Shown here: positions 354 to 22,600 of the stretch, piece by piece
Numbering within the stretch: position 1 is the stretch's first letter
Layout: each line of letters begins with the position of its first letter
DNA from: Chromatiales bacterium (ex Bugula neritina AB1)
Lineage (GTDB): Bacteria; Pseudomonadota; Gammaproteobacteria; Granulosicoccales; Granulosicoccaceae
Length of the DNA: 64,000 nt
Assembly (NCBI GenBank): GCA_001730015.1
Contig: MDLA01000099.1
Span: forward strand, 1 to 64,000
Reading direction: 5' to 3'
Program-made: the position numbers and the translations under genes
Notes under the pieces: generated by a model
Told to the model about the DNA's origin: nothing
Database searches by the model: none
What the model saw: only the letters and a program-made list of their open reading frames with translations

Positions 354-1090
354 ATGACCTGTAAAGGCCAGGCCCGCTTTGCGGGTCGCTACTCGCGAGC
401 CTTGACAGGACAGGCTTGTAGGATGAGGGTTTACCATGCCGTTATGCTGAGGTCTCGTCTCGACGGAATTTGTACAAAAAACCAGTATAATCATCGTTGC
501 GAAACCCGGATTGACCCATTTTTAAAAAATCTGCACGATCGAGCAGTTCACCTTCAATTTGACCAACCCGACAGCAGGTTCGATGGTGGCGCTATTTCAC
601 TCAAAGCGGCAGACGAACGACTTCAGCTAACGGCATCCCTGGCCAGCTGTCTGCACGACAAACGTAATCCTGCCTATATCACCCATACTTATCAGGATCT
701 GTTGCGACAACGTGTTTATGGTTTAGCCTGTGGATACGAAGACTGCAACGATTCATCGAGGCTCAGAGCCGATCCAATTCATCGATTCGTTCTAGATCGT
801 GATCCAGTTGACGGTGATGAGTTGGCTTCGCAGGCAATCCTTTGTCGATTTGAGAATGCGATTGGTGTGAGATCCTGGATCGAATGTCAACCGAGTTAAC
901 TGAACGTGTAGTGGAGCATCATCGCAAATGTCTCGATGGAAAAGTCCATTAAATTACAATTGATATGAATCCCACTGACGACCCTACATATGGGCAACAG
1001 CGATTGGCTTTCTACAATTTACATTAGGGTAACTGGCGCTATGGGGCGATTGCGATACCGTATCGATACACGAGATAGGAAAGGGATCCG
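354..1090 (+). pseudogene. Decayed IS1380-family transposase (N-terminal part)
   Basis: ORF 354-899 contains FDGGAISLKAADERLQL...DLLRQRVYGLACGYEDCNDSSRLRADPIHRFVLDRDPVDGDELASQ, typical of IS1380 transposases. After the stop, the +1 frame continues with ELTERVVEHHRKCLDGKVH*ITIDMNPTDDPTYGQQRLAFYNLH*GNWRYG, matching the family's D-x-D/N-PTDDPTxGxQQ block but broken by stops. Confidence 0.8.
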
Positions 1091-5245: not shown

Positions 5246-6220
5246 CTACTTGATCGCGCCCGATGCTTTCAGAATACCTTCGTGACGAGTACGCTGAGTA
5301 TCCCAGTAACTGGCCAGATCAGAACCGGCCATGAAATCACCCATTAGCGATTTTTTGCTTTTATATTCCTGCCAGTCTGCTGAGTCGTAGACCTTGGTGA
5401 ACAAGTCAGTGAAGTATGCCAGGGCATCATCAGACATACCCGGTGCACCAACAACAGAACGCTGCATGAAGTAGGAGAAGTCGGAACCGGTTTCTTTTAA
5501 GGTGGGTACATCCGGGAACATGGGCAGGCGCTCGTCGGTAAATGCAACCAGCGGGATTACGTCGCCACTTTCGTAGAAACCCAACGCTTCTGAAGGGTTA
5601 TTCACTGAGCTGTCTATTTGCTCACCAGCCAGATCTTTAGCAACCGCTCCACCACCTTTGTACGGAATGTACTTGATCGACAGATCGTATGCGGTATTCA
5701 GATGATCAGTGATGATGTTGTCTTCTGAATTTTTACCGGTACCGCCCATCACCCAGCCTGAGCCGCGCTTCTGTGCTTCGGCTACGAATTCATCAAACGT
5801 ATTAATGCCTTCATTCTTGTGAACCCAAAGTAAAAAGGTATCTTCAGCCATACGCCCGACGGGTGCAAATTTCATGATGTCGACATTGAGGCCCGGTTGA
5901 CGCAACGGTGTGGTGAAAAAAGAGTTCAGCGTTACCATGATGGTGTGATCAGGGTCAGAAACACCATTCATGTGAACCAGCGCTTCTGCACCGGAACCTC
6001 CGGATTTATTAGTTGGAACCAGTGGCCGCGAAGCGAGATCTTCTTTCTCAACAATGGACTGCATCAGTCTGGCCATTTTATCGGCACCACCGCCTTTGCC
6101 TGCCATAATGACAAAGTCGACCGGCTTCACCGGCTCCCATGCCTGCGCTACACCTGTAACCGCTAATGCGGCAACACACATAGCTCCGGCACCTATTAGT
6201 TTTCGAAATGACATTGACAT
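5246..6220 (-). CDS. tctC: Tripartite tricarboxylate transporter substrate-binding protein TctC
   Basis: Signal peptide MSMSFRKLIGAGAMCVAALAVTGVAQAWEPVKPVDFVIMAGKGGGAD; TctC-family body including KYIPYKGGGAVAKDLAGEQID. Confidence 0.93.
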   Translation of the reverse strand: MSMSFRKLIGAGAMCVAALAVTGVAQAWEPVKPVDFVIMAGKGGGADKMARLMQSIVEKEDLASRPLVPTNKSGGSGAEALVHMNGVSDPDHTIMVTLNSFFTTPLRQPGLNVDIMKFAPVGRMAEDTFLLWVHKNEGINTFDEFVAEAQKRGSGWVMGGTGKNSEDNIITDHLNTAYDLSIKYIPYKGGGAVAKDLAGEQIDSSVNNPSEALGFYESGDVIPLVAFTDERLPMFPDVPTLKETGSDFSYFMQRSVVGAPGMSDDALAYFTDLFTKVYDSADWQEYKSKKSLMGDFMAGSDLASYWDTQRTRHEGILKASGAIK

Positions 6221-6356
6221 ATTCCTCTCTGTGTTGTGGAAGTCGCAGGTATTAAGGTATACCAGCGTTACTGTACTGCGCAAATACCTATCGTACTTCA
6301 AATGCAGCTTAAATTCTGTTCGAGCCGGTAGTATCAGTCGAACAGTTCACACATAG

Positions 6357-6546
6357 CCCGCATTATTCATGGAATTGACGGAATCCCACCTGATCTTTGA
6401 TTCCACAGAGAAATTTTTCTCTTGCAAAGATCAGTAAGCATTCGACGCGAGTAGAAAATGCCCTGTGAAAACCCTTGCCCTGAATAAATAAGGCCTACAT
6501 AAATAGGGTCTACAGGATACCCTCGCCGCCCCATGAATAATGCGGG
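6357..6546. mobile_element. MITE-like element, copy 1
   Basis: 190 bp bounded by perfect 16 bp TIRs CCCGCATTATTCATGG...CCATGAATAATGCGGG; interior alignable with 22425-22600; non-coding. Confidence 0.85.
6486..6515. repeat. Internal ~15 bp tandem duplication in MITE copy 1
   Basis: AAATAAGGCCTACAT followed by AAATAGGGTCTACAG; accounts for most of the length difference from copy 2. Confidence 0.6.
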
Positions 6547-6622
6547 TTAGTATTGATCCGGCCCACTGTGCAAAAAAAGAAATATCTGCACGGCGGGCCA
6601 GCCACTGCATTACTTGTTGTCT

Positions 6623-8302
6623 CTAGAACAGTCCGTCGATCTGGCCTTCTTCATTTAAGCGAATAACCTCTGCAGACGGCACTCTTGGAAGGCCGGGCAT
6701 TGTCATTATTGCACCGCAAATCACCACAATAAACCCGGCTCCTGCAGATAGCCGAACTTCCCGGACCGGAATACTGTGGCCAACCGGTGCGCCGCGCTCA
6801 TTCGGATCAGTTGAGAATGAATACTGCGTTTTAGCAATGCAAACGGGCAGATGACCATAGCCGGCTTCTTCCCAGGCTGTGAGCTGATCACGAATAGCCT
6901 GATCAGCCTGCACATCCTCTGCACGGTAGATTTTCCTGGCGATAGCTTCTATTTTTTCCATTAACGGAATGTCATCGCCGTATATTGGTGCAAAGTCAGC
7001 TTTGTCTTCGTCGATAATTTCCACAACGCGGCTGGCAAGATCTTTTGTGCCATCGGAGCCATGTGCCCAGTGCTTGCACACAACGGCCTCAGAACCCTGG
7101 CTGCTCACGTATTCTTTAACTGCAGCAATCTCTGCTTCGGTGTCGAGCGTGAAATGATTTATCGCAACAACCACCGGCACACCATATTGCTTGAGATTTT
7201 CTATATGGCGACCCAGATTCGCGCAGCCGCTGACAACCGCTTCAACGTTTTCTGAATTGAGGTCTTCTTTAGCCACACCGCCGTTCATCTTCATTGCACG
7301 TACTGTTGCAACAAGAACCACAGCTGATGGTGCGATGCCGGCCTTGCGACATTTAATATCGAGAAACTTCTCTGCTCCGAGATCTGCCCCGAAACCCGCT
7401 TCTGTAACAACATAATCGGCAAGCTTCAACGCCGTTTTGGTTGCTATCACTGAATTACAGCCGTGAGCAATATTTGCGAACGGCCCGCCGTGAACAAATG
7501 CCGGGTTATTTTCCAGTGTCTGCACCAGGTTAGGCTGCATCGCATCTTTCAATAGAACAGCCATCGCGCCATCGGCTTTTAAATCGCGGCAGTAGATAGG
7601 AGTCACTTTGTCGCGGCGGTAAGCGACAATAATATCACCGAGTCTTTTTTCAAGGTCTTCGAGGTCTGTCGCAAGACACAGTATTGCCATCACTTCAGAA
7701 GCTACGGTGATATCGAAACCAGCTTCCCGCGGAAAGCCATTGGTAGCGCCACCCAGGCTGGCGGTTATCTGCCGCAGTGCCCGGTCATTCATATCCATTA
7801 CACGCCGCCAGACCACACGTCGTGAATCTATTTCGAGTTCGTTACCCCAATAGATATGGTTGTCTATCATTGCGGCTAATAAATTGTGTGCGGAAGTTAT
7901 GGCATGGAAATCACCGGTGAAGTGCAGATTCATGTCTTCCATAGGTACAACCTGCGCATAGCCACCGCCTGCTGCCCCTCCTTTCATGCCGAAGCAGGGC
8001 CCGAGAGATGCTTCGCGAATACAAATCAAGGCGTTTTTGCCTATGGCATTCAAGCCATCGCCAAGCCCGACAGTTGTTGTTGTTTTACCTTCACCGGCGG
8101 GTGTCGGGTTTATTGCGGTAACCAGAATAAGCTTGCCGTCTTCGCGCCCTGCCTGGTCTTTGATAAAAGCTTCAGATACTTTGGCTTTATCGTGCCCGTA
8201 GGGAACCATTGATGTAGACGGAATACCGAGTTTTTTCCCGATTTCAAGAATCGGGAGCTTGCTCGCCTCGCGGGCGATTTCAATATCTGTTTTGACTGCC
8301 AT
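6623..8302 (-). CDS. fhs: Formate--tetrahydrofolate ligase
   Basis: 559 aa with [28 protein letters not shown] and other highly conserved Fhs blocks. Confidence 0.97.
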
Positions 8303-21017: not shown

Positions 21018-22412
21018 ATGAGTTTTTATCTTTGCAAAGGGGGGCGAATTCTCTTGCTCTCTGCAGTTTCCGCCAGTCTGTTATCAATAGAGGCTGCGTC
21101 TGCCGCAACCCCAGTCTGCCAATTTCCTGAAAGTGACGAAAGCGGTGACGGCTGGGGCTGGGAAAATAACCGCAGCTGCCGAATCACATCTGCTGCTCTG
21201 AGTGCTTCCGGTACCGCGAAGTCCAGGCCCAGCGCTAAAGCAGGTCTCGTTGCTAATACTAAGCCTGCTGTAAACTACTGCACTAATCGCGATTCTGATC
21301 TGGATGGAGATGGCTGGGGCTGGGAAAACAATCGAAGTTGCCGTGTCTCAACCAATTCTCTTAGTGTTTTCGATACCAAAAAATCTACATCCAGCACTAT
21401 ACCAGGTCCTGTAGTTAGTGCAAACCGGGCAGTTAATTACTGCGATAACCGTGATTCTGACCCGGATGGAGACGGCTGGGGCTGGGAAAACAACCGAAGC
21501 TGCCTTGTTAACGAAGCAGGGGAAGATCCGGCAACTGGTCGCAACAACAGCAGCCTCTATGCCGCTAAAGCGATTAATTCTACCAAGGTTGGCACACCCG
21601 AAGTCAAAACAATTAAAAGCAAACCGGTCGACCCCGGCAGTGTCATATATTCACAGGATTTCAGCTCAGCGTCCCAGGGTTTGTACCAGGGCGATCAGCT
21701 ACATGAACAATGGGATTCTCCCGTGTGGCACATGGGCTTTGACGAGGGACGGGTGAAGATCATCACAGATGATGCAGCTCACGGTAATGTTATGCAGGTC
21801 ACCTACCCCGCTGGTGCCTACGGCTCGGCCGGCGCCACAGCCTTCCTTGTCGATGTGCAATTTGATTCGAATTCCCCCAAGAGCTACGACGAACTGTATC
21901 TTTCCTACGATATAAAATTCGCTGACAATTTTGAATTTGTACACGGCGGAAAACTACCCGGACTGTGCGGTGCCAGCATAGATCAGGCTCCGGAAACAGG
22001 ATGCAACACTGGCGGTGGATACCCGAGCGGCTACGATGGCTGGAGTACACGTGGTATGTGGCGCCAGAACGGCGCACTGGAGAACTACGTCTACCACGCC
22101 GGACAAACAAACTACTACGGAGACGATCTGTTCTGGGGATCTAACGGGAGCCGCGGTCAGTGGCATAGAATTCAGCAACGCGTGGTGCTCAATACCCCCG
22201 GTGTGGCCGACGGAATAATTGAAACCTGGCTGGACGGCAAAAAGGTTTTATCCGTCACCGATATGCTCTACCGAAAAACCGGGGCTATTGGCATTAACCT
22301 GTTTTATTTCAGCACTTTCTATGGCGGCAATGACCCCAGCTGGGCTCCCTCTTCCGACCAGACTGCATTTTTTGATAACTTCCGGATTTCAACACAACCG
22401 GCCGGGTTTTGA
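21018..22412 (+). CDS. Secreted polysaccharide lyase (PL14/alginate-lyase-like) with three N-terminal CBM10-like GWGWEN repeats
   Basis: Signal peptide to ASAATP; three C..(D)DGDGWGWENNRSC modules; PL14-like core LSYDIKFADNFEFVHGGKLPGLCG...TRGMWRQNG...WHRIQQRVVLNTPGVADGIIETWLDGKKVL...FDNFRI. Confidence 0.8.
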   Translation: MSFYLCKGGRILLLSAVSASLLSIEAASAATPVCQFPESDESGDGWGWENNRSCRITSAALSASGTAKSRPSAKAGLVANTKPAVNYCTNRDSDLDGDGWGWENNRSCRVSTNSLSVFDTKKSTSSTIPGPVVSANRAVNYCDNRDSDPDGDGWGWENNRSCLVNEAGEDPATGRNNSSLYAAKAINSTKVGTPEVKTIKSKPVDPGSVIYSQDFSSASQGLYQGDQLHEQWDSPVWHMGFDEGRVKIITDDAAHGNVMQVTYPAGAYGSAGATAFLVDVQFDSNSPKSYDELYLSYDIKFADNFEFVHGGKLPGLCGASIDQAPETGCNTGGGYPSGYDGWSTRGMWRQNGALENYVYHAGQTNYYGDDLFWGSNGSRGQWHRIQQRVVLNTPGVADGIIETWLDGKKVLSVTDMLYRKTGAIGINLFYFSTFYGGNDPSWAPSSDQTAFFDNFRISTQPAGF

Positions 22413-22424
22413 TACAGTGGACAA

Positions 22425-22600
22425 ACCCGCATTATTCATCGGGTTGACGGGATCTCACTGGATCTTTGATTCCACAGAGAGTTTTTTCTCTTGCAGATAT
22501 CAGTAAATATTCGACGCGAGAAAAAAATCCACTGTGAAAGCCCTTGCCGTGAATAAAAAAGTCTGCGCGATATCCTCGCCACTCCATGAATTATGCGGGT
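22425..22600. mobile_element. MITE-like element, copy 2
   Basis: ACCCGCATTATTCAT...ATGAATTATGCGGGT TIRs with one mismatch; interior alignable with 6357-6546 (GATCTTTGATTCCACAGAGA, TTCGACGCGAG, CTGTGAAA, CCTCGCC). Confidence 0.85.

Follow-up and report, generated by a model that had tools for sequence, protein, structure and literature searches.

A high-copy miniature transposon with IS1380-type tips in a Chromatiales bacterium and related Gammaproteobacteria

The locus

The window analyzed here is a 64,000-nucleotide stretch of contig MDLA01000099.1 from Chromatiales bacterium (ex Bugula neritina AB1). It contains two copies of a short palindromic repeat (Table 1). Copy 1 is intergenic, with an fhs-like gene (minus strand, 6623–8302) and a tctC-like gene (minus strand, 5246–6301) on either side; 76 bp separate it from the fhs-like stop. 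A sequence-only reading of the window had described perfect 16-bp inverted ends bounding 190 bp, an internal palindrome, a position between fhs and tctC about 140 bp upstream of tctC, and a second, diverged copy at 22425. These observations hold: the ends are exact reverse complements, the palindrome is AGAGAAATTTTTCTCT, the distance to the likely tctC-like ATG (near 6220) is about 136 bp, and copy 2, which starts at 22426, is 85% identical to copy 1. Copy 1 is 190 bp long rather than 175 bp because of a 15-bp tandem duplication. It contains no ORF of at least 100 aa (6357–6546).

Table 1. Positions in the window of the element copies, their parts and a transposase gene fragment
Feature	Position	Strand	Remarks
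Decayed IS1380-family transposase gene fragment	552..872	+	Ends not found; start of window
Copy 1, left target-site copy ATAG	6353..6356		Decayed YTAR
Copy 1 of the element	6357..6546	+	190 bp; same orientation as the family consensus
Left terminal inverted repeat, CCCGCATTATTCATGG	6357..6372	+	16 bp; IS1380-type tip by comparison
Inner hairpin stem of copy 1, left arm (TTGATTCCACAGAGAAATTTTTC...)	6397..6420	+	From sequence; stem covariation across genomes
Inner hairpin stem of copy 1, right arm (AGAAAATGCCCTGTGAAAA)	6453..6471	+	From sequence; stem covariation across genomes
Tandem duplication in copy 1, 15-bp, approximate	6485..6514	+	From alignment
Right terminal inverted repeat	6531..6546	-	Perfect reverse complement of left repeat
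Copy 1, right target-site copy TTAG	6547..6550		
Copy 2 of the element	22426..22599	+	174 bp; 94% identity to family consensus; between two + strand genes

The target duplication has decayed at both copies (ATAG/TTAG at copy 1, CAAA/TAAA at copy 2). Searching the 64-kb window for YTAR joined to the tip, with three mismatches allowed, gives four matches, against a mean of 0.04 in shuffles. Upstream of copy 2, a gene at 21018–22412 encodes a 464-aa protein with the repeated motif DSDxDGDGWGWENNRSC; short DNA-level stretches of this gene recur in many congener contigs.

Copies in the home genome

The home genome is a 7.4-Mb draft. A BLASTN search for further copies, proposed as a check in the sequence-only reading, found a family, with 40 candidate places scored, including the window copy, and further candidates beyond these. 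Allowing two mismatches, the genome holds 306 matches to the tip (control, 7); allowing three, it holds 124 matches to a core pattern (control, 0). We take the latter as a minimum copy total, at least 124; full-length copies were read at 76 places. These range from 158 to 193 bp, in which a transposase gene could not fit. Most follow consensus lengths of 175 or 159 bp; what sets the longer form apart is a 16-bp insert within its right half. Mean identity to the consensus is 93%. The entire element is an imperfect palindrome, as shown by a match between its profile and the reverse complement.

The consensus of the 16-bp insert, TTATTCACGGCAAGGG (about 6470–6490 in the window), resembles the IS1380 tip TTATTCACGGCAAGG from Phaeodactylibacter (L199), and is possibly an extra transposase site or possibly a chance likeness. 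One copy (L104:1324-1521) has part of its core duplicated internally, and others (L112, L116, L118, L121) are truncated or interrupted; these copies are useful for tracing how subfamilies arise.

Insertion sites

The four bases flanking the 76 full-length copies read YTAR in 60 cases on one side and 61 on the other. The two flanking 4-mers are identical in 48 copies, nearly all of them YTAR, whereas re-pairing the sides gives a mean of 16 and a maximum of 27. The duplicated 4-mers are TTAA, CTAA, CTAG and TTAG.

Exact filled and empty sites come from a second miniature repeat in the same genome. Copies at L014, L010 and L128 inserted at one same TTAG inside this repeat. The filled site at L014 reads CAGCGCCTTAG-element-TTAGATGCTGCT, with variants at L010 and L128, while the intact second repeat at L121 reads CAGTGCCTTAGATGCTGCT. 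The site at L121 is empty (CAGYGCCTTAGATGCTGCT), as are those at L009, L129 and L027, which are one or two bases off L121. Comparison of the filled and empty sites therefore shows a 4-bp duplication, which the sequence-only reading had proposed looking for in this way. The second repeat itself is about 179 bp long with ends CCCWGGTGTTGCAT... and ...ATGCAACWCCAGGG, and lies outside the window (L129:2125-2303, L027, L009, L137, L089, L117 and L121:1545-1722). Our element, with its IS1380-type tips, has entered this repeat on at least three occasions at a single TTAG; at L121 the second repeat is instead inserted within a copy of our element.

The tctC and fhs genes are adjacent without the element in two other genomes (G014 and G011), so copy 1 either arose by insertion in the home lineage or disappeared from those two. 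The exact empty site of copy 1 was not recovered in a congener: the genes keep their order there and the element is missing, but divergence of the spacer prevents alignment.

The element is a real, high-copy, non-autonomous transposon (MITE), as the sequence-only reading had suggested from inverted repeats and two copies; copy number, target duplication and exact empty sites now bear this out. Most resident copies, including both in the window, have the appearance of intergenic insertions undergoing decay.

Relation to IS1380

IS1380-family transposase genes (NF033539, PF13701) are present in the home genome. In resident IS1380 elements the first bases are CCTGAATAATTCATAAG and the last are the complement of CCTGCATTATTCATCC, adjoining YTAR. 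A complete IS1380 element of a congener (G018) is flanked on each side by CTAG and carries the tips CCTGGATTATTCATGAG and CCTGATCTATTCATGAG, and IS1380 elements of other phyla have tips CCCGGATTATTCAYGG/GA (CCCGGATTATTCACGG), again adjoining YTAR. The element shares this tip pattern (CCYG..ATTATTCAYG, starting with CC) and the 4-bp YTAR target duplication seen in IS1380 elements of the genus. It differs from IS1380 in having no gene and in having only the tips, not the interior, in common.

The resident IS1380 tips are related to those of the element but differ at several positions, and contigs break inside the resident elements. The home draft genome yielded no IS1380 whose tips equal those of the element, CCCGCATTATTCAYGG. 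Thus, the search for a transposase with the same inverted repeats succeeded in part: it led to the IS1380 family, with tips of the same kind, but not to identical tips. A profile search found no element core in IS1380 elements, with only tips matching, at chance E-values. The motif GATTGASGGAA adjoins the left tip in both the element and resident IS1380 (0.045 of shuffles). We rejected origin by deletion from a known IS1380, since only the tips are common and the interior has no counterpart.

In the proposed mechanism, an IS1380-family transposase made elsewhere would recognize the 16-bp tips and would cut out or copy the element. Insertion would then occur at a 4-bp YTAR target (TTAA, CTAA, CTAG or TTAG), which would be duplicated. 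We infer that the IS1380 transposase itself is the mobilizer because tips and target are common to the element and to IS1380, both in the genus and in other phyla. Overall, the element is very probably a non-autonomous transposon moved in trans into YTAR by an IS1380-family transposase.

The decayed transposase gene fragment at the start of the window is a possible former helper. Among the 14 genomes of the genus, ten have no IS1380 match and two more (G013, G015) have a weak one; we rejected these two as helpers because the genes are IS4-type by sequence. The copies in G015 look recent, since their cores are nearly identical. No IS1380 was detected in G015, where all 37 tips found seem to belong to copies of the element. 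Multicopy IS elements are, however, often missing from draft assemblies.

Distribution

Within the genus, 12 of 14 genomes carry the element, as does the single sampled genome of a second genus. Four other genera of the family, Granulosicoccaceae, were covered by 33 genomes, and none of these has it. Among 369 sampled Gammaproteobacteria, 11 additional genomes match, no two of them from one family. Five have full-length relatives at 72–77% identity (G099, G178, G310, G398, G410), four have diverged or partial matches (G261, G309, G331, G335) and two have short, weak matches that we do not rely on (G230, G402). All eight far copies that were read have YTAR on both sides, with identical 4-mers in six. 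No match was found in searches for phage or plasmid carriage of the element, or among viral contigs searched with three core patterns.

Tips differ by lineage: CCCGCATTATTCAYGG in the home genome, CCCGGATTATTCATGA and CCCGGTTTATTCATGA in congeners, and CCCGCATTTCTCAC in most far copies. Changes between lineages affect both ends together. Within the genus, core identity between species consensuses is 92–97%, compared with 71–76% for the fhs gene in the same genomes. A tentative reading, which we hold at well below even confidence, is that this is a long-lived gammaproteobacterial element whose hairpin core is the functional part under selection (as a DNA cruciform, single-strand hairpin or RNA required for spreading) and whose tips are exchanged between lineages to suit the local IS1380-type transposase.

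Hairpin covariation and decay

Covariation was assessed in 21 copies from the genus, the second genus and several other families. In the inner 22-pair stem, 13 of the 22 pairs have two-sided changes, with 38 such cells; shuffling yields 11.5, and sliding the register never yields more than 8. The tips have two-sided changes across lineages in 10 of 17 pairs. RNA folding gives z-scores of -6.4 and -7.6. A stem that covaries across lineages, as in a structured RNA, is present, though a DNA-level cause is also possible.

The home genome gives a different picture. Its stem has 2 two-sided cells versus 1.4 expected, a test whose power is limited by low divergence, and stem and loop decay alike, at about 5%. 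Concerted tip changes in the home genome are not above chance (2 versus 1.3 expected), and copy picking biases the tips. It is apparently the moving lineage, rather than the resident copies, that is being conserved. From a hairpin kept across distant lineages and not in resident copies, we infer that it matters for propagation (transposition, or host tolerance of the inserted DNA) and not for regulation of neighbors.

Mispairs in the stem favor A-C over G-T on the plus strand by 42 to 7 in the 21 copies, equivalent to G-U on the minus strand. This weak strand bias would fit RNA made from the minus strand, although much of it is driven by columns 47/114, one ancestral pair counted many times.

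Neighboring genes

We classified the context of 87 copies: 42 lie in tandem, 31 in convergent and 14 in divergent gene pairs, compared to 30, 10 and 13 for the remaining junctions of the same loci, a contrast that is indicative only because the classes come from a simple ORF picker. None of the 87 lies inside an ORF of at least 80 aa. Orientation in tandem pairs shows no preference (24 to 18). At 15 genes the 3' end directly meets the element, a consequence of the stop codon (TAA or TAG) being part of the YTAR target.

Copy 1 has no sigma-70 promoter or intrinsic-terminator match and no match to Rfam at E up to 1; a far locus gave one sub-threshold, unrelated Rfam match. We rejected promoter or intrinsic terminator as the identity of the element, given no match in copy 1. 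The sequence-only reading had also suggested placement in promoter regions and a regulatory or terminator role. Neither finds support here: convergent gene pairs hold 31 of the 87 copies and divergent pairs 14, and alongside the missing promoter, terminator and Rfam matches, resident copies decay evenly.

Alternative explanations

If the element were instead a regulatory or terminator module that the host has duplicated and retained, this would account for the strong hairpins and for the many copies that closely follow stop codons or lie in convergent gene pairs. Against this stand the exact empty sites and target duplications, the relatives that have the gene pair and no element, the even decay of resident copies with uncompensated stems, and the lack of promoter or terminator matches; placement at stop codons follows anyway from TAA and TAG within YTAR. 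The empty sites and even decay lead us to reject it as the main explanation, and we regard it as extremely improbable. A transposon whose copies, once inserted, also affect mRNA in the manner of ERIC in Yersinia (where a read-through hairpin alters the stability of neighboring transcripts) fares better: the element can fold over its full length, 15 genes end precisely at its border, and the stem mispairs lean to A-C. We still consider this unlikely, as tandem copies show no orientation preference, resident stems are not preserved, and the wobble bias is mostly the single ancestral pair.

Two further alternatives concern how the element changes and what moves it. Palindromic DNA is known to undergo quasi-palindrome correction, in which template switching between the arms could produce covariation of tips and stem with no selection. 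The joint changes of both tips and inner arms between lineages fit this process. However, the arms in the home genome are uncorrected, with tip and stem changes close to expectation, and tips are expected to change together if one transposase binds both; we think correction doubtful as the explanation. A transposase of another family with similar tips could also move the element, since no IS1380 with identical tips was found and 12 of the 14 genus genomes have either no IS1380 match or a weak, IS4-type one. Against this, the tip sequence, the CC start and the 4-bp YTAR target agree with IS1380 elements of several phyla, which makes a mover from outside IS1380 very unlikely and mobilization by an IS1380-family transposase the preferred reading.

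Comparison with known elements and significance

Several known repeats resemble the element in part. Like ERIC (IRU), the enterobacterial 127-bp palindromic repeat, it is short, intergenic, palindromic, mobile, foldable throughout and present in many copies (PMC2229807). ERIC differs in length, and has a 7-bp TIR and TA at its ends (Table 1 of PMC2229807) where the element has 16-bp tips and a 4-bp YTAR target. A query with the relative in L274 found no match in 5,426 Escherichia coli genomes, and on this and the absence of an Rfam match for copy 1 we rejected identity with ERIC. RUP of Streptococcus pneumoniae has about 100 copies, is thought to be mobilized in trans by an IS with like tips (IS630-Spn1) and tends toward other mobile elements (PMC2229807). 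The element shares a copy number of this order, the putative trans-mobilization by a like-tipped IS and the occurrence inside other mobile elements, while RUP is 107 bp long, has an IS630-type TA target and belongs to another phylum.

Correia/NEMIS elements of Neisseria are intergenic MITEs of similar size (long form about 155 bp) with terminal inverted repeats, but have TA ends and 24-bp repeats (PMC2229807), and promoter function has been reported for them (PMC4853749), in contrast to none found in the element. Outside bacteria, IS1380 has been used as a distant outgroup for piggyBac (PMC10140906). The element and eukaryotic piggyBac would be related solely via the transposase superfamily. 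PiggyBac transposons have tips starting with CC and a TTAA-type target, both resembling those of the element. The open literature that we searched contains no description of an IS1380-type MITE and no instance of the tip sequence; an earlier report may exist in subscription papers or ISfinder.

A bacterial MITE is typically known from a single genus and tied to IS630-like elements with TA targets. The family described here is a high-copy MITE family with exact empty sites whose tips and target tie it to IS1380. It accounts for much of the intergenic repeat DNA and some of the contig breaks in these draft genomes. With relatives in several gammaproteobacterial families and a covarying core, it makes the purpose of a MITE interior directly testable.
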